Source: Verrucomicrobiota bacterium
GTDB lineage: Bacteria; Verrucomicrobiota; Verrucomicrobiia; Limisphaerales; Fontisphaeraceae
Direction: 5' to 3'
Assembly (NCBI GenBank): GCA_037139415.1
Contig: JBAXGN010000062.1
Coordinates: 1 to 37,982 of the forward strand
DNA: 37,982 nucleotides
The notes below the pieces were generated by a model, which saw only the letters and a program-made list of their open reading frames with translations, was not told the origin of the DNA and searched no databases. Both the position numbers and the translations under genes were made by a program. Below, one piece after another: positions 1,001-10,114 of this stretch. Within the stretch, counting starts at the first letter, position 1. Each line of letters starts with the position of its first letter.

Positions 1001-1098
1001 GGAGGTGGCTGGCGGCCTGGTTGGCGCTCCTGGTCTTCAAAACCAGTGTGGGGCTCAACAAAGTCCCGGGTGGGTTCGATTCCCATCCACCTCCGCCA
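1001..1098 (+). tRNA. selC: tRNA-Sec (anticodon UCA)
   Basis: This is the selenocysteine tRNA, which decodes in-frame UGA together with SelB. The acceptor arm has 8 base pairs (1001-1008 with 1087-1094), followed by discriminator G1095 and an encoded CCA at 1096-1098. The anticodon stem 1030-1034/1042-1046 encloses the loop CTTCAAA with anticodon TCA at 1037-1039, the same loop as E. coli selC. The long variable arm pairs GGGGCT with AGTCCC around CAACAA, and the T arm carries TTCGATT. The extended acceptor and long variable arm separate it from a suppressor or Ser tRNA. It implies the genome carries selA, selB and selD elsewhere and has at least one selenoprotein. It sits 19 nt before a small membrane-protein gene. 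Confidence 0.97.
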
Positions 1099-1117
1099 AG
1101 GTTTGGTTGGTTCTGAT

Positions 1118-1474
1118 ATGCAACGCATCGCGCAACCGCCGATTAATCCCGTGCGACGGGATTCGGAGCATCATGACTTTTTGCCGGGGTTTATCCCGGC
1201 GGTTATTGGTGCGCTGCTGCTTTTCATTGGCAGCCGCCACTTGACCAGCCTGGATACCACGGCGGGCAACTCCGCCTGGGAGACGCAATTGGTGAAGGCC
1301 ATCGCGAACAGCGGACTTCAGATTGTGCCACCCGCGCCGCCGCCTGATCCCGCGTCCTTGGATGACCCGGTCAAGGCGGCCGCCGCGTTTCAGCAAATGG
1401 ACCAGCAATTTGCCCAACCATACAAACTAAAATACCGAATCAACACCGGCGCCAAGGCCGCCTGTCCCACGTGA
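1118..1474 (+). CDS. Small one-pass membrane protein, possible selenoprotein ending CPT-UGA
   Basis: Frame of 118 residues starting 19 nt after the selC CCA end. Residues 1-20 are hydrophilic, about 21-43 form one hydrophobic membrane segment, then comes a Pro-rich linker (about 70-80) and a polar tail ending in GAKAACPT. I do not recognise a named family. The frame closes on UGA at 1472-1474, directly after Cys116-Pro-Thr; if UGA is read as Sec the protein gains U, V and K and stops at UAA (1481-1483), giving a C-terminal redox motif Cys-Pro-Thr-Sec. The adjacent selC, the CxxU spacing and a stem-loop 15 nt downstream favour recoding, but an ordinary stop cannot be excluded. The polyferredoxin gene begins 45 nt downstream, so a membrane thiol/electron-transfer partnership is plausible. 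No Shine-Dalgarno is visible, and the start is chosen because it is the first ATG after the tRNA. Confidence 0.6.
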   Translation: MQRIAQPPINPVRRDSEHHDFLPGFIPAVIGALLLFIGSRHLTSLDTTAGNSAWETQLVKAIANSGLQIVPPAPPPDPASLDDPVKAAAAFQQMDQQFAQPYKLKYRINTGAKAACPT

Positions 1475-1489
1475 GTAAAGTAATCTTTT

Positions 1490-1510
1490 TCAGCCACATG
1501 GCGTGGCTGA
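1490..1510 (+). other. Stem-loop after the UGA, SECIS candidate
   Basis: TCAGCCAC pairs perfectly with GTGGCTGA (8 bp) around the 5-nt loop ATGGC. The loop begins 23 nt after the UGA, within the spacing generally seen for bacterial SECIS elements. It has no T-run after it, so it is a poor intrinsic terminator. Against it: the first two loop bases are A and U, whereas bacterial SECIS loops usually have a G there. It could instead only be an intergenic hairpin that limits ribosome access to the next start codon. Confidence 0.35.
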
Positions 1511-1519
1511 CCCTTTAAA

Positions 1520-2437
1520 ATGGATTGCCCCACCCCAGGTCCAGCCTGCCCGAGTCAAGTCACGCCGCCGGTTCCCGGCAGGAAGCGTGAATTGTTCGCC
1601 AAGCTGTTGCAGGTGCGGCATTGGGTGCAACTGGCGTTCACCGGTCTTTGGCTGGCTCCGCTGGGAGAATGGATGCAACGGGTTCCCGGCTGCGTGTTTC
1701 ATTGTTATTCCTGCCCGTGGTCATCGGTGTCCTGTCCGGTGGGGATTGCGGCGCAGTACGCCGCGTTGTTTCCGGTGGCGTTGGAAATTCCCTATCTGCT
1801 GTTGGGGGTGTTGCTGGTGGTGGCGGCGGTGAGCGGGTCGCTGGTGTGCGGGTGGGCGTGTCCGTTCGGTTTTTTGCAGGATTTATTGGGCAAACTCGTT
1901 CCACGAAAACTCCCCATGCCGGGCTGGCTGGGCTATTTTCGCTACGTGGTGCTGGTGGGATTGGTGCTGTTATGGCCGGCGATTTTGGGTTATCAGGGCA
2001 TTCCCTTTGAGCATCAAGTTGTCTCTATCTGTCGTTGGTGCCCCGCCGGAGCGCTGGAAGCGGGGGTGCCCTACTCGATCAGCAGTGTGCTGGATGGCCA
2101 TGGCTGGCTGATGAGTGGTCTCAAGACCGGCATTCTGGTGGTGTTTCTGCTGTTATCCGTGGTATTCCTGCGTCCGTGGTGCCGGATTTTCTGTCCCCTC
2201 GGCGGCTTCCTGGCACTGTTCAACCGTTTCAGTTTATTTCACTTGCAGTTCAAAGGCTCCGAATGCAAGGAATGCAACTTGTGCCGAAGCCATTGTGCGG
2301 TCGGCGTGAAAGTGGATGAAAAAATCAATGTGACCGGATGTATCCGCTGCCTGGAATGCACGCGGTGCGGCGCGGTGGATCCGGCGTTTGCACTGCCAGA
2401 GAAAGCGGCTGAGCAAGCGCATGCCGCGCCGAAATAA
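1520..2437 (+). CDS. Membrane-bound polyferredoxin, NapH/CcoG-like 4Fe-4S protein
   Basis: 305-residue multi-pass membrane protein that probably passes electrons across or along the cytoplasmic membrane. Cysteine motifs in order: C58-x3-C62-x2-C65-x6-C72 in the first loop, CGWACP (110-114), CRWCP (171-174), CRIFCP (221-225), then two ferredoxin-type motifs C249/252/255/259 and C274/277/280/283 in a cytoplasmic-like tail. The CxxxCP repeats at the ends of membrane helices are typical of the NapH/NosR-C/YccM polyferredoxin group. An in-frame stop at 1508-1510 lies just upstream, so ATG 1520 is the earliest possible start. It follows the small membrane protein by 45 nt and is likely co-transcribed with it. 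Its electron donor and acceptor are unknown. The family call is secure, the exact subfamily is not. Confidence 0.85.
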   Translation: MDCPTPGPACPSQVTPPVPGRKRELFAKLLQVRHWVQLAFTGLWLAPLGEWMQRVPGCVFHCYSCPWSSVSCPVGIAAQYAALFPVALEIPYLLLGVLLVVAAVSGSLVCGWACPFGFLQDLLGKLVPRKLPMPGWLGYFRYVVLVGLVLLWPAILGYQGIPFEHQVVSICRWCPAGALEAGVPYSISSVLDGHGWLMSGLKTGILVVFLLLSVVFLRPWCRIFCPLGGFLALFNRFSLFHLQFKGSECKECNLCRSHCAVGVKVDEKINVTGCIRCLECTRCGAVDPAFALPEKAAEQAHAAPK

Positions 2438-3769: not shown

Positions 3770-4609
3770 TCAGCGCAATTTTCCAATGGCCGTAAGGATG
3801 CCGTGCAGCAGTGCGTGCGGATTGGGTGGACAACCGGGGATATAGATATCCACGGGAATCACCTGGTCCACCGCGCCAAGCGTGGCATAGTTCCGTCCGA
3901 AAATCCCGCCGCTACATCCGCAAGCGCCGACGGCCACCACGAGCCGGGGATCGGGGGTGGCATCGTAGGTTTTCTTCAAGGCCAATTCCATGTTGCGCGT
4001 GACTGGGCCGGTCACGAGCAGCATATCCGCATGACGCGGGGAGGCGACGAAATGAATGCCAAAGCGTTCCAAGTCGTAGATGGGGTTGTTCAAACCCACA
4101 ATCTCAACTTCGCAGCCATTGCAGGACCCGGCATCCACCTCGCGGATATGCAGGGAGCGTCCCAGCACTTTCTGGGTGCGTTCCTTCAAGGCTGCGCCAA
4201 TGGCTTGCAGCCCCTGATCCATGGCCGGGCTCGGAGTGGTGGGGCCAGACGTCAAGCTGGTCTGGGAACCATCCTTTGCCAGTGCGTATTGGGCGATTTG
4301 GTACAAGTCGGCGCGCTTGGATTTGGCCAGTTCGCAGCGATTGGTCAGGTGGATGGCCGGCTCCACCTCCGCGCACAGCCCGCAGAAAATACATTTGGCC
4401 AGATCAAAGGTCACCGTGCGGTTACCCCGGTTATCCACGCAGGCAATGGCTCCGGTGGGGCAGATGGCTGCGGCGGGGCGCGCGTCCCGCCATTGGGCAA
4501 AGGCGATTTCCGGCAGCCCGCGTGCGATGGGCGAGACTTCGGCAGGTTGCTGCGGATAATCGCTGGTAACCACGCCCACCCGGAGACTGTTGTTAAGCAC
4601 CTTAAACAT
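3770..4609 (-). CDS. Ferredoxin-domain/HycG-like small subunit fusion
   Basis: 279 residues joining two parts usually encoded separately. Residues about 30-100 are a degenerate ferredoxin domain: CPTGAI (C50) and C73-IFC-GLC79 can ligate one [4Fe-4S] cluster, while the other cluster's ligands are gone. Residues about 140-279 are the small subunit of the complex I / group 4 hydrogenase family: SCNGCE (C163, C166), GACGCSGG (C230, C232) and PGCPPNP (C260) supply the proximal cluster. The CNGCE form resembles HycG/HyfI more than NuoB. It follows the large-subunit gene by 17 nt, so the two form one transcript. No membrane subunits (HyfB/C/E/F type) are in this window. Role: cytoplasmic electron relay of a membrane oxidoreductase; donor and acceptor unknown. 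Confidence 0.8.
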   Translation of the reverse strand: MFKVLNNSLRVGVVTSDYPQQPAEVSPIARGLPEIAFAQWRDARPAAAICPTGAIACVDNRGNRTVTFDLAKCIFCGLCAEVEPAIHLTNRCELAKSKRADLYQIAQYALAKDGSQTSLTSGPTTPSPAMDQGLQAIGAALKERTQKVLGRSLHIREVDAGSCNGCEVEIVGLNNPIYDLERFGIHFVASPRHADMLLVTGPVTRNMELALKKTYDATPDPRLVVAVGACGCSGGIFGRNYATLGAVDQVIPVDIYIPGCPPNPHALLHGILTAIGKLR

Positions 4610-4626
4610 GGCGGCGGGGATGTGGG

Positions 4627-6216
4627 TTAGCGGTCATTGCCGGAATAGGAAAGGTTGAAGCTCTTGTTGACCACGGGGAAATCCGGCACGATGTTGCCGA
4701 GGATGGCCTCGCTCATGGCTGGCCAGTTTTGCAGCGACGGGTCCTTGATTTTGCAGCGTTGCAGGCGGTTGTCCGGGCCGGTGCGAATCCAATGGAAAAT
4801 CTCGCCGCGCCAGCCTTCCACGTAGCCCAAGGCCATACGGTCTGGCGGCAGGTTTTCGATTGGCTCAAACAGTTTTCCCTCCGGCAGGTTGGGGACGAGT
4901 TGGCGGAGGATGGAGATGGATTGGCCGACTTCCTCAATCCGGATTTCCATGCGGCGGGCGACATCTCCCTCGCCATAGACCGGCACATGAAAGCGCACCT
5001 GGTCATACGCGGCGTGCGGGAAGTCACGGCGCAAATCATGGTTGAAACCCGAGGCGCGCCCGGCGACACCGACAATGCCAAGATCACGCGCGATGCCCGG
5101 CTTGAGAATGCCGGTGGTTTCCAGGCGTTCACGCGTGGAGGCGGACGCCTGGATCATTTCGATCACGGCATTAAAATCAGGCTCCAACTCATCCAAAAAG
5201 CGTGTCAGGGCACGACATTGATCCGCATTGAAATCGAACCGCACGCCGCCCAATCGCGCCATGCCCCGCAAAAGGCGATTGCCCGTCAACGCCTCGTTCA
5301 GGCGCAGGGTTTTCTCCTTGAGCCGCATGGCGTGGGCATTGCCCGTCACAAAGGCCACATCGGTGGCAATTGCCCCAATGTCGGCAATATGATTATACAG
5401 GCGTTCCAGTTCAAGGCAGACGGTGCGCAACGCACGGGCCCGGGGCGGGGCATCCACGTCGGCAGCGCGTTCCACCGCATGACAAAACGCGGTGGCGTGC
5501 GCGAAGCTGGAATCACCGGAGATGCTTTCGGCCAGGCGCACGGCATGAGTGACGGGCAGGCTTTCAAAGCGTTTTTCGATGCCTTTGTGGACATAGAACA
5601 GGCGTAACTGCAGGTAGAGCACCGGTTCGCCGGCGACACTGAAAAGAAAGTGGCCCGGCTCAATGATGCCCGCATGGACCGGTCCCACCGGCACTTGGAA
5701 CACGCCTTCGCCCTCCACCGTGCGAAATTTATGGCGCTCCCCTTGAAACGGGGGAAGCTGCGTTGCCAGATCAAAGTCCTTGCGCAACGGATGGACATCC
5801 GGCCAGTCGTCATGCAAGGCGCAACGGCGGGGATTGGGATGCCCCACCAACTTCAGCCCGAACATGTCCTGGATTTCCCGTTCCTGCCAGTTGGCGGCGG
5901 GGACGGCGTTGGCCAACGAGGGGAACTCGAGATTGTCTGGTGAGACCGGCGCCTGCAAAATGAAAAAGCCGTGTGCCGAATCCACGGCGAACACGTAATT
6001 GACCAGGTACGATTTTTCCGCTTCCCGCCGATCTTCCGCGAACACGCCGACCAGGCGCGCCTCCCACTTTTTATAGAGGTAGGCGCAGATGCCGCCGACG
6101 AGGTCCATGGACACGCGGAGATAGACTTCGTTGTGCCGCGCAACGAAGGTGGATTGGAGGCGGGCGTGGAACCGGGCGGTGACGTCGTCAAAAACGGGTT
6201 GGAATGCGGCAAGCAT
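4627..6216 (-). CDS. NuoCD/HycE-like large subunit without Ni-Fe ligands
   Basis: 529 residues. The N-terminal part (about 1-160) is a NuoC-like 30-kDa domain with the EREIQDMFG signature at 112-120; the rest is a NuoD/HycE-like large-subunit domain, the architecture of HycE/HyfG. In hydrogenases the first ligand motif is E-R-x-C-G-x-C; here it reads ESISGDS (230-236), Ser at both Cys positions. The C-terminal DPCxxC reads DPSLQN (492-497), so both of those are lost too. It cannot hold a Ni-Fe centre, which places it with the energy-converting hydrogenase-related (Ehr-like) complexes or a quinone-reducing relative. It begins 25 nt after the ilvB stop. The call as a cysteine-less homologue is firm; the substrate is unknown. 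Confidence 0.85.
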   Translation of the reverse strand: MLAAFQPVFDDVTARFHARLQSTFVARHNEVYLRVSMDLVGGICAYLYKKWEARLVGVFAEDRREAEKSYLVNYVFAVDSAHGFFILQAPVSPDNLEFPSLANAVPAANWQEREIQDMFGLKLVGHPNPRRCALHDDWPDVHPLRKDFDLATQLPPFQGERHKFRTVEGEGVFQVPVGPVHAGIIEPGHFLFSVAGEPVLYLQLRLFYVHKGIEKRFESLPVTHAVRLAESISGDSSFAHATAFCHAVERAADVDAPPRARALRTVCLELERLYNHIADIGAIATDVAFVTGNAHAMRLKEKTLRLNEALTGNRLLRGMARLGGVRFDFNADQCRALTRFLDELEPDFNAVIEMIQASASTRERLETTGILKPGIARDLGIVGVAGRASGFNHDLRRDFPHAAYDQVRFHVPVYGEGDVARRMEIRIEEVGQSISILRQLVPNLPEGKLFEPIENLPPDRMALGYVEGWRGEIFHWIRTGPDNRLQRCKIKDPSLQNWPAMSEAILGNIVPDFPVVNKSFNLSYSGNDR

Positions 6217-6241
6217 ACATTCTCACGCGCCCAGGCCGCGT

Positions 6242-8122
6242 TCAGGGGCCGACGATCATATCGGCCACGGTGCGGTTGGACGGGATGAACGGCATGACGT
6301 GCTCCGTGTAAGGCACAATGACATCCAGCACGTACGGTTCATCCGCATCCAACATGCGCTGGATTGCGCCGCGCAGTTCGCTCTTGTACATCACGCGTTC
6401 GCATTTGACGTTGAACCCTTTGCAGATGGTGACGTAATCCGGGTAAATGTTGGCGCGTTTCAGCGGGTCGCCCAGGTAGGTGTGGCCGCGGCGTCCGTGG
6501 TAGAAACGGTCTTCCCATTGCACCACCATGCCCAAGTGCTGGTTGTTCAGGATGACGGCTTTGGCGTTGATCTTCTCGATGTGCGCCATCGCCAGCTCCT
6601 GCACGTTCATGAGGAAGCTGCCATCGCCATCAATGTCAATCACCTGGCGATCCGGAAAAGCCACCTTGACGCCGATGGCGGCTGGGTAACCGAAGCCCAT
6701 GGAGCCAAGGCCGCCGCTGGTGATGAACTGGCGCGGGTGCTTGCATCGGTAATATTGCCCGGCCCACATCTGATGCTGGCCGACCCCGGTGGTGATGATG
6801 GCATCGCCCTTGGTCATCTCCCACACCAGATCCACGATGTGCTGCTGCAAAATGATTTCCTTCTCCTTGCCGACCAGATGATCCTTCATGTGATCCGAAC
6901 TGACCACTTCTTCCGTCACGCGATAGGCGAAGGGCGCCTTCTTCTTCCACAGGTCAATCTGCTGGTGCCAGGCGGCGTTCTTCTTGGCGGCCACCCGCTG
7001 CTTTTGCAATACCACCAGGCGGGCTAGGGCGTGCTTGATGTCGCTTTCGATGGCGAGGTTCGCCCGGCGGTTCTTGTTGTGCTCGGAGCGGTCCACATCA
7101 ATATGAACAATGGTGCCACCCTCGCAAAAACTCTCAAATTTACCGGTGACGCGGTCATCAAAGCGGGCCGCGAAGGCCAGCAGCAAATCCGCGCCATTGG
7201 CCAGTTTGGTTACCCGTTCGGAGCCGTCCGGCAGTTTTTCCTTCTTAAATTCACCACTCACCGCCCAGTTGGCGTAGGCGGCCCCGTGCATGCCCAGCCA
7301 GCGCAGGGAGAGCGGGTGCTCTTCCGGGAAACCACCGATACCCATGAGGGTGGTGGTCACCGGGATGTTTGTCAGTTCGGCGAAAGCCAGTAATTCCTTG
7401 CTGGCGCCACCGCTGACGATGCCGCCGCCGCAATAGATCACCGGACGATCCGCCTTTTCGATCAAGTCCAGGACTTTGAGCAATTCCGCGTCCTCGGCGT
7501 TGCGCGGTCCGGGGTAGCCCGGCAAATCCAGTTTGTCCGGCCATACGGGTATGGCTTTGGCTTGCTGGATATTCTTGGGAAAATCAATCAGGATGGGGCC
7601 GGGCCGTCCGCTGGTAGCGATATGGAATGCCTCTTTTACGATGCGCGGGATATCATTGATGTCGGTGATTAGATAGCTGTGCTTCACGATCGGCAGGGTG
7701 ACGCCGAACATGTCGGTTTCCTGAAACCCGTTCCGGCCAATCATGGATTGGACCACCTGGCCGGTGATGCAAATCAGCGGGACGGAATCCATATAGGCAT
7801 CTGCCAGCGCCGTAACGAGGTTGGTGGCGCCGGGGCCGCTGGTGGTCATGCACAGCCCGGCTTTGCCGGTCGCGCGCGCGTAACCGCTGGCCGCGAAAGA
7901 ACCGCCCTGTTCGTGCCGTGGCAGGATGGTGCGAATCTGGCTGGAATGGGTCAGCGCCTGGTGCAGTTCCATGCTGGCGCCGCCCGGATAGGCAAAAATC
8001 ACCTCAACGCCCTCGCGTTCCAGGGCGGCCACAAAGATTTCACTGCCCTGCATCAGGCGGTTTTCCGGTTTCGGCGCGGGCGCCGGTTTCTGTTTCGCTT
8101 TGGTTCGGACTGTTTTGCTCAT
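6242..8122 (-). CDS. ilvB: Acetolactate synthase large subunit
   Basis: 626-residue thiamine-diphosphate enzyme that condenses two pyruvates (or pyruvate and 2-oxobutyrate) in the first common step of valine, leucine and isoleucine synthesis, in the cytoplasm. The catalytic Glu is E71 in the PRHEQGG motif. The TPP/Mg motif starts at GDGS (499) and ends at NN (526-527). The N-terminal 20 residues (K/P-rich) precede the usual domain start [15 protein letters not shown], a modest extension. No regulatory subunit gene (ilvN/ilvH) is adjacent; downstream are instead two complex I-like genes. Upstream lies a Leu/Val-rich leader peptide and an intrinsic terminator, so expression is probably controlled by transcription attenuation. 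Confidence 0.95.
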
Positions 8123-8470: not shown

Positions 8471-10114
8471 ATGTTTTGCTATCAATGTGAACAAACCTCG
8501 CGCGGCCAGGGATGCCGCGATTTATCCGTCTGCGGCAAGGATGAGACCTCTGCCGCCTTGCAGGATTTGCTGGTGCATGCCGCCAAGGGAATCTCCCAAT
8601 ATTTACATCGCGCCCGTCAACTCGGGGCCAAAGATCGGGAACTGGATGTGCAGGTGGTGGAGCTGTTGTTCACCACGGTGACCAATGTGAATTTTGATCC
8701 CGCCCGGCTGGAACAAATGCTGTGGACGGCGATGAAGCAGCGCGATAAGGCCAAGCGCCTTTATGAGAGCGCTTGCGCGCATAACGGGAAGACGGCGGAA
8801 AGCCTGTCCGGTCCCGCAACCTGGGTGCCGGCAACGCAACTCGCCGGGCTGTTGGTTCAGGCAATTGACGTGGGGATTGCCAAACGCAAGCAACTGCTGG
8901 GCGACGATCTTGCTGGGTTGCAGGAACTGCTGCTGTACGGAATCAAGGGCACGGCCGCCTACGCGGATCATGCGCTGGTGCTGGGATTTGAAGAAGATTC
9001 GGTGTATGCCTACTTCGAGGAAGCGCTGGATTACCTGACCGACCCGAAACCCACGGTTGAGAAACTGCTGGGCCTGAACCTGAAATGCGGCGAGGTTAAT
9101 TTGAAGGTGATGGAAATTCTGGATAGCGCCCACACCAGCTCGTATGGGCATCCCACGCCGACCCCGGTGCCGATCACAGCGGTGCAGGGCAAGGCCATTC
9201 TGATTTCCGGCCACGATCTCAAGGACTTGGACGTATTGCTCAAGCAGACGGAAGGCAAGGGGATCAATATTTATACGCACGGCGAAATGCTGCCGGCTCA
9301 CGGGTACCCGAAACTCAAGGCGTACAAACACCTGGTGGGTAACTACGGTGGTGCCTGGCAGGATCAAGCGGAGGAATTCGCGGCGTTCCCCGGCGCGATC
9401 CTGATGACCACGAACTGCCTGCAAAAACCGCAGGACAGCTATGCCAAGCGCATCTTCACCTCTGGCCTGGTTGCCTGGCCCAATACCACGCATATCGGCA
9501 ACCAGGATTTCACCCCGGTCATCGAAGCCGCCCTGGCGGCCCCGGGCTTTGCCAAGACGGAAGAGGAAAAGACCATTCTCGTCGGGTTTGGGCACAACGC
9601 TGTGATGCAGGCGGCGGGTGCGGTGGTCGAAGCCGTGAAATCCGGCGCCATCAAGCACTTTTTCCTCGTGGGCGGTTGTGACGGAGCGCGCACCGGGCGC
9701 GATTATTACACGGAATTTGCCGAATCCGTGCCGAAGGATTGCGTGATCCTGACGCTGGCTTGCGGCAAGTATCGCTTCAACAAGCTGGACTTCGGCAACA
9801 TCGGCGGGATTCCGCGCCTGTTGGATGTCGGCCAATGTAATGACGCGTATTCCGCCATCCAGATTGCGGTGGCGCTGTCCAAAGCGTTCAACTGCGGGGT
9901 GAATGATCTGCCGTTATCCATGATCATCTCCTGGTATGAGCAAAAAGCCGTCGCGGTATTGCTGACGCTGTTGCACTTGGGCATCCGAAACATCCGCCTT
10001 GGACCGACACTGCCGGCATTCGTTACGCCTAACGTGTTGAACGTACTGGTGGAGAAATTCAACCTGATGCCGATCACAACCGTCGAGAAAGATCTCAAGG
10101 CTATCATGGGCTGA
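8471..10114 (+). CDS. hcp: Hybrid cluster protein (Hcp)
   Basis: 547-residue cytoplasmic iron-sulfur-oxygen enzyme; historically called hydroxylamine reductase, now mostly seen as a nitric oxide reductase / nitrosylase acting in nitrosative stress. N-terminal cluster ligands are C3, C6, C15 and C21, the spacing of the class found in anaerobes. All seven hybrid-cluster ligands align: H248, E272, C316, C403 (persulfide position), C431, C456 and E490. Length is normal for the family. No hcr reductase gene is next to it. The 5' region of about 110 nt after the FNR-like box has no clear Shine-Dalgarno; the ATG is fixed by the essential N-terminal MFCYQC. A terminator follows 40 nt after the stop. 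Confidence 0.97.
   Translation: MFCYQCEQTSRGQGCRDLSVCGKDETSAALQDLLVHAAKGISQYLHRARQLGAKDRELDVQVVELLFTTVTNVNFDPARLEQMLWTAMKQRDKAKRLYESACAHNGKTAESLSGPATWVPATQLAGLLVQAIDVGIAKRKQLLGDDLAGLQELLLYGIKGTAAYADHALVLGFEEDSVYAYFEEALDYLTDPKPTVEKLLGLNLKCGEVNLKVMEILDSAHTSSYGHPTPTPVPITAVQGKAILISGHDLKDLDVLLKQTEGKGINIYTHGEMLPAHGYPKLKAYKHLVGNYGGAWQDQAEEFAAFPGAILMTTNCLQKPQDSYAKRIFTSGLVAWPNTTHIGNQDFTPVIEAALAAPGFAKTEEEKTILVGFGHNAVMQAAGAVVEAVKSGAIKHFFLVGGCDGARTGRDYYTEFAESVPKDCVILTLACGKYRFNKLDFGNIGGIPRLLDVGQCNDAYSAIQIAVALSKAFNCGVNDLPLSMIISWYEQKAVAVLLTLLHLGIRNIRLGPTLPAFVTPNVLNVLVEKFNLMPITTVEKDLKAIMG

Follow-up and report, generated by a model that had tools for sequence, protein, structure and literature searches.

The window is a stretch of 37,982 nucleotides from a Verrucomicrobiota bacterium and corresponds to contig C62 in a draft assembly 7.9 Mb in size and 98% complete. 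On its forward strand, the tRNA-Sec gene selC was located at positions 1001..1098 by ARAGORN and by the Rfam model RF01852 (67.6 bits). The end of selC is separated by 19 nt from the ATG at 1118, which opens a 118-codon frame ending Cys116-Pro-Thr-UGA-Val-Lys-UAA. Based on translation and the family alignment, the gene of this putative small one-pass membrane selenoprotein, here named the CPTU protein, spans 1118..1483 on the same strand including the UAA stop, and the product comprises 121 residues ending C-P-T-U-V-K when the in-frame UGA at 1472..1474, present in 18/18 loci, is read as Sec at residue 119. A SECIS-like hairpin of 8 bp (seven conserved pairs and one local pair) with the loop AUGGC, identified by covariation, occupies 1490..1510 of the forward strand. 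It begins 15 nt past the UGA and lies entirely 3' of the UAA, in the gap between the CPTU gene and the next forward-strand gene (1520..2437), which encodes a NapH-like membrane polyferredoxin of 305 aa assigned by Pfam Fer4_5 and 18 aligned homologues. A first-pass annotation had described selC, the short gap, the frame with its terminal motif and a polyferredoxin with 16 or more Cys; all of these were confirmed in the window, with 20 Cys counted in the polyferredoxin.

Conservation of the UGA codon and the hairpin

Using a profile of five sequences, we identified the CPTU protein in 18 of the 320 genomes searched in the window's order, the window's own counted; a first search had matched 5 of 97 relatives, the window's genome among them. 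In an alignment of 17 proteins, the 16 others are 34-53% identical to that of the window. The C-termini were read at 18/18 loci, and all carriers end CPT-UGA-[VIL]-[KRH]-stop, with TAA, TGA or TAG as the final stop and with neither Cys nor TAA nor TAG at the UGA position in any of the 18 loci. The tail codons differ between carriers (GTA, GTG, ATA, ATC and CTG at the first position; AAA, AAG, CAC and CGC at the second), and in one carrier (G267) the gene is split across two contig ends. Coding past the UGA is conserved but short, comprising two residues and then a stop in 18/18. The first-pass annotation had held that a protein confined to this locus, or relatives closing on other stops or lacking the two-residue tail, would speak against recoding. 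Neither outcome was seen: homologues exist in other genomes, and UGA and the [VIL][KRH] tail are kept in 18/18 loci.

A phylum-wide sample of 387 genomes contained no CPTU protein besides the window's own. Two strict peptide patterns run on the GTDB-species collection returned 6 loci, all with UGA and all among the 18 carriers; the other carriers were missed through overly strict patterns or because their genomes are absent from that release. Plasmid searches with the window's CPTU protein and with one partner of a distant polyferredoxin (see below) gave no match. The genomes are drafts, and the six identified ones are MAGs. A Cys version was found in none of the 320 order genomes, the 387-genome sample, the GTDB-species pattern scan and the plasmids, and the CPTC form predicted by the first-pass annotation for relatives lacking selC thus appeared in no genome searched.

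Alternatively, UGA1472 could be an ordinary stop, the protein ending at CPT and the hairpin acting as a regulatory or stability element between co-transcribed genes. TGA is the commonest stop in the loci read, terminating 267 of 431 frames of at least 250 codons (shadow frames counted in), so the 18 UGAs alone could partly reflect chance and descent, and the hairpin does sit between two genes. However, chance and descent can hardly account for eighteen tails that each comprise two codons of conserved type before a stop. Furthermore, the distance between hairpin and UGA is nearly fixed across loci, and selC adjoins the CPTU gene in 14/18 carriers, lying no more than about 0.5 kb upstream.

The hairpin itself covaries over seven pairs, which answers the check suggested in the first-pass annotation for the stem at 1490-1510. 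Its covariation score is 0.273 versus 0.147-0.148 in shuffled alignments, with 0/500 shuffles as high, and it falls to 0.113 or less when the hairpin is slid along the alignment; a second run of the test agrees. Standard pairs fill 87.5% of the pair cells in the 18 loci, compared with 81.6% in shuffles. Weaker measures of covariation are reached more often by shuffles (52/500 for pair changes on both sides, 232/500 for pair types). The 8-bp stem reported in the first-pass annotation is present 15 nt after the UGA, but its outermost U-A pair is standard in just 4/18 loci, leaving seven conserved pairs. The loops of bacterial SECIS elements usually have a G at their first or second position, a rule from which this hairpin departs. 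The same annotation had taken the loop without a G near its 5' end as a weak point; the Gs do fall at loop positions three and four, a placement that characterises the family and is no local defect, the loop reading A-N-G-G-N in 17/18 loci, with the most divergent locus (L026, in G255) as the exception. In Rfam, the hairpin matches no SECIS family at E up to 10. A model trained on these same family hairpins ranks the family's own hairpin first in 7/7 genomes searched, the window's included, with E of 2e-5 to 3e-4 in six genomes and 0.085 in G255. An ordinary stop codon is ruled out in our view by the UGA in 18/18 loci, the conserved tail and the hairpin, and we regard that reading as extremely improbable. 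On these sequence patterns, the UGA is very probably recoded, and the CPTU protein would end in a selenium-containing redox motif.

Sec machinery of the carriers

Sec incorporation requires selA, selB, selC and selD, and the window's genome holds the full set (selC on C62, selA on C149, selB on C152 and selD on C29). UGA1472 would be decoded as Sec by the adjacent selC with the genome's own SelA, SelB and SelD, the hairpin at 1490-1510 directing the insertion. We identified selA in 17/18 carriers and a strong selC in 17/18, and both exceptions are one genome (G054) that is 57% complete. A strong selC, counted by eye from the listed matches with E no higher than 8.4e-11, occurs in 83 genomes, with approximately 66 of the 302 non-carrier genomes of the order having one, versus the 17/18 carriers. 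The CPTU protein is present in 17/83 strong-selC genomes versus 1/237 others (Fisher p 4e-10, kinship ignored). A bare RF01852 match is uninformative, being found in 315/320 genomes and 13/14 controls, presumably through other long-armed tRNAs. In 7/18 carriers, sel protein genes lie convergent to the CPTU locus on the same contig within approximately 13 kb, namely selD, selB and selA in G080, G123, G250, G255 and G115, selB and selA in G122, and selD in G207. Beside selC of 20 non-carriers and at four selC loci of three carriers, the profile matched no CPTU-type homologue and tblastn detected no polyferredoxin; at ten of these loci, the search for shared UGA frames gave nothing convincing.

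The SelB of the carriers belongs to one distinct clade in 17/17 carriers compared, which are all carriers except G054 (17/18), and in 0/10 non-carriers. Identity to the SelB of the window's genome is 50-71% in the 16 other carriers, over nearly the full length, save that the SelB of G120 is a 255-residue fragment with 68% identity. Those of ten selC-bearing non-carriers reach at most 46.5% identity, several of these comparisons being N-terminal only, in some cases because the available stretch ends there; the exception is G060, where a 168-residue N-terminal fragment is 54% and the later part 29% identical. Two carriers, G124 and G126, hold both kinds of SelB, which are approximately 35% identical to each other, and G126 additionally has two tRNA-Sec genes and two selA. 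These observations raise the possibility of a largely private Sec system, in which the distinct SelB clade would read the A-N-G-G-N hairpin and serve the CPTU protein, with a second Sec system using a different SelB beside it in some cells. We consider this arrangement doubtful, because G124 and G126 each have one selD above the cut-off, of the Sec type, and both are draft bins, G124 being scored 8% contaminated.

Other selenoproteins were sought in the carriers. The SelD of the window's genome has Cys, and its formate-dehydrogenase-like matches are free of internal stops. A SelD without internal TGA lies above the cut-off in 13/18 carriers, and G266 has one with TGA in addition; G122 (a fragment), G124, G126 and G054 have a TGA-containing SelD only, and G267 gave a partial match only. 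For the formate dehydrogenase alpha subunit, no match above 100 bits in 27 genomes has an internal stop and none reaches the family cut-off; G250 is without a match, and some weak partial matches contain internal stops, with a lone TGA in G256 (77 bits). The hairpin model gave 66 matches in 7 genomes, 7 of them the family's own hairpins, and 27 were read (4 own and 23 others). Among these 23 non-family matches no second convincing selenoprotein was found, and in the window's genome the 4 of 10 matches read include no second notable UGA-ended gene. Two odd frames were seen among the matches in G016. Because SelD has Cys, the formate-dehydrogenase-like matches have no internal stops and the hairpin matches read show no second notable case, the CPTU protein is the sole selenoprotein demonstrable in the window's genome, and others with a different hairpin are possible.

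The polyferredoxin partner and its distant relatives

A homologous polyferredoxin, 56-68% identical, lies directly downstream of the CPTU gene in 18/18 carriers. In the alignment of 18 homologues, 18 of the 20 Cys are invariant, including C58, C62, C65 and C72, the CxxxCP pairs 110/114 and 221/225, the pair C171/C174 and two C-terminal four-Cys sites. Pfam assigns Fer4_5, and the NCBIfam matches are sub-threshold hits to NapH and NosR alone. The protein shares Fer4_5 domains, CxxxCP motifs and the two C-terminal four-Cys sites with NapH/MauN and the NosR C-terminus, but its scores fall far under the cut-offs (43.5 of 213.05 bits for NapH/MauN TIGR02163), and it adds the invariant N-terminal Cys set. 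No nap or nos gene was found among the neighbours identified, which are a part of all neighbours. The structure model of the polyferredoxin (pLDDT 53.6) is too poor to use.

Since the carriers were picked by the CPTU protein, the CPTU protein implies the polyferredoxin, and the reverse does not follow from these loci. A polyferredoxin search of 377 phylum genomes (E 1e-25 or better) identified nine distant relatives, 29-35% identical, and a Cys-x-x-UGA frame lies upstream of each of them (9/9). Together, the pairing of polyferredoxin and CxxU frame holds at 27/27 loci, 18 from the selenoprotein side and 9 from the polyferredoxin side. The frames in G375, G692 and G533 encode one-TM proteins of 88-92 aa ending CPTU-K or CPTU-L. 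The other six (G677, G665, G564, G689, G607 and G569) run 41-45 residues beyond the UGA, and these conserved extensions further argue against an ordinary stop. The first five of these carry the motif C-P-[ST]-U, align with conservation on both sides of the UGA and have secretion-signal-like starts by eye; the frame in G569 is cut by a contig end and has the motif C-S-H-U, with a tail similar to the other five by eye. All nine genomes contain selA, and their tRNA-Sec genes score 66.9-80.5 bits, whereas no other match in any of them exceeds 49.9. In G533, selC, selA, selD, selB, the selenoprotein and the polyferredoxin follow one another in this order on one contig; in G689, the selenoprotein, polyferredoxin, selA, selB and selD share a strand, and selC lies on the opposite one.

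Pfam and NCBIfam scans of eight distant partners gave nothing convincing. Membership of one of them in NF040473 was rejected, the match reaching 27 of 110 bits and being confined to the N-terminal part. The distant short CPTU proteins align with the CPTU family over the last 14 residues alone (hhalign E 2.6e-4, probability 42%), and the longer partners align at the motif alone. Profile comparison detected no homology among the CPTU family, the distant short CPTU proteins and the CD1871A proteins described next beyond the terminal motif.

A search of 72,556 plasmid records gave a single match to the polyferredoxin with E of at most 1e-15, namely EAL2_808p of Peptoclostridium acidaminophilum, whose polyferredoxin is 38% identical over 75% of the window query. 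The preceding gene encodes a CD1871A family CXXC motif-containing protein (NF040920 confirmed) of 45 aa with one TM, ending CLECIGIG; the accessions of the pair are WP_168023683.1 and WP_025437090.1. A member of the TlpA family is encoded two genes further upstream of the CD1871A gene. The layout of the CPTU protein is shared here, with a small one-TM protein, a Cys-x-x-Cys in place of the C-terminal CxxU, four residues from the end, and a position directly before the polyferredoxin gene. The two proteins differ in length (45 aa versus 121) and in the Cys in place of Sec, and no homology between them is detectable (hhalign probability 2%). NF040920 is absent among the NCBIfam matches of 17 CPTU homologues at E up to 1, and searches of 12 genomes, the window's among them, gave no match to it, nor did the control genomes. 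The first-pass annotation had noted that one-pass CxxC proteins accompany polyferredoxins in some clostridia; such a pair does exist, in one record, but homology of its small protein to the CPTU protein was not detected, so the CPTU protein is not classed in the CD1871A family. By analogy, the CD1871A protein may work like the CPTU protein.

Proposed function and significance

The CPTU protein has one membrane helix near its N-terminus. The N-terminal side of the helix is more positive in 14/17 CPTU proteins; the window's protein has a net charge of 0 on either side, the two sides are balanced in one relative, and the bias is reversed in another. This positive bias, with which the signal-like starts of the five distant partners agree, suggests an exported tail, and the C-terminal part ending CPTU would most likely lie outside the membrane. 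The structure model of the CPTU protein is of moderate quality (pLDDT 74.7, pTM 0.38) and has no fold match in the PDB. Proteins of the NapH type transfer electrons between quinols and Fe-S carriers. Reducing equivalents from the cytoplasm or the quinone pool would most likely reach the CPTU pair through the polyferredoxin, after which the selenol would reduce exported thiol/disulphide or peroxide-type partners; we infer both the topology and this direction of electron flow. Six carriers (G123, G207, G115, G080, G250 and G084) have large carboxypeptidase-regulatory-repeat proteins within approximately 8 kb upstream, with a C-terminal stretch that looks thioredoxin-like by eye and that no Pfam thioredoxin model matched in the one tested; these proteins are candidate substrates only.

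The fixed pairing would be best accounted for by a membrane thiol/selenol relay that the polyferredoxin reduces. The chief rival of this relay takes the Cys and/or Sec of CPTU as ligands of an Fe-S cluster of the polyferredoxin, so that the small protein would serve as a structural subunit in a membrane-bound Fe-S complex. The strict gene pairing is consistent with this arrangement, as is the invariant extra set C58, C62, C65 and C72 that the polyferredoxin has besides its two C-terminal four-Cys sites. However, CxxU and CxxC pairs typically serve as redox centres of the thiol/selenol kind, and at the distant polyferredoxins the motif is carried by proteins of other sequence and layout; ligation of a cluster by the motif is therefore unlikely in our judgement. 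Metal or metalloid handling, with metal-ion reduction by the polyferredoxin and binding or delivery of the ion by the CPTU tail, appears less likely still. A CPxU motif could form a soft-metal site, and several selenoprotein families are named as metal-related in Table 1 of a May 2026 review (PMC13188914), but the few recurrent neighbours identified, a small part of all neighbours, include sel genes and secreted-looking large proteins and no metal gene, which argues weakly against such a role. The reading as a whole, a Sec-decoded CPTU protein with an exported tail acting in a thiol/selenol relay fed by the polyferredoxin, is the one that we favour and hold to be fairly probable.

The CPTU protein has no convincing match in Pfam or NCBIfam and none by sequence in the PDB. 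Table 1 of the same review comprises 119 prokaryotic selenoprotein families and subfamilies, many of which share a CxxU motif (for example GrdA, HdrA and SELENOW-like), but by the names, motifs and domain identifiers given there none is recognisable as the CPTU protein. Neither the protein nor its pairing with the polyferredoxin is described in the open-access literature searched, bioRxiv and most subscription papers lying outside that scope. We take the CPTU protein to represent a new family of bacterial selenoproteins that comes with a new partner in a fixed pairing.

Search methods based on Sec/Cys pairs would tend to miss proteins of the CPTU type, for which the searches detected no Cys relatives. 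The family may explain why the Sec machinery is kept in some Verrucomicrobiota despite their Sec-free SelD and formate-dehydrogenase-like proteins. If the occurrence of two SelB types in a single genome is genuine, orthogonal Sec decoding in nature would become open to testing. Through two or three protein layouts, these loci link Sec to an electron carrier of the membrane Fe-S type and suggest a general route by which electrons may be pushed to thiol/selenol chemistry outside the membrane.

Further genes of the window and the SelD of its genome

The genes on the minus strand of the window at 3773-6216 resemble those for the 20, 30 and 49 kDa subunits of complex I, and their products may belong to a complex of the energy-converting hydrogenase type. 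A prismane/hybrid-cluster family protein is encoded on the plus strand at 8471-10111. On another contig of the same genome (C29), a Cys-type SelD (locus L050, 4787-6412, minus strand) combines an N-terminal extension rich in Cys with a C-terminal domain of the carboxymuconolactone-decarboxylase/AhpD-like type (Pfam CMD match). This SelD aligns nearly end to end by tblastn in 11 of the 18 carriers of the selenoprotein and polyferredoxin, the window's genome counted, and its matches in three non-carriers (G006, G254, and G256) show 44% identity.

Arrangement of the Sec machinery

Two differing SelBs, approximately 35% identical, were observed in each of two genome bins, G124 (loci L056 and L057) and G126 (L059 with L060, and L047 with L048); G126 also has two tRNA-Sec genes and two selA genes. 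In G533 (L131) and G689 (L136), the selA, selB, selD, and selC genes are grouped compactly about the selenoprotein and the polyferredoxin.

Other UGA-containing frames

Two more types of CxxU protein, both undescribed, were observed 5' of the distant polyferredoxins (loci L120-L128). The first is short with one transmembrane segment, and the second is longer, with a hairpin within the coding region directly 3' of the UGA, whose loop is predicted to be GGU-like in several. In genome G016, two SECIS-like hairpins (L076:1501-1529 and L088:1501-1517) each lie 3' of a UGA-ended frame. One frame has 29 codons, encodes a lipoprotein-like peptide and closes with SGCG-UGA-R-stop; the other closes with poly-Gly-UGA-GPY-stop.

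A recurrent neighbour family

A protein encoded at 5316-6569 of locus L033 (G123), with relatives in L040, L039, L032, L129, and L130, belongs to a family for which a Pfam search returned no match. In four of the carriers, G123, G250, G084, and G122, a member of the family is encoded 5' of selC, and in two of the distant genomes, G375 and G692, one lies next to the polyferredoxin. It is possibly a third component alongside the selenoprotein and the polyferredoxin.
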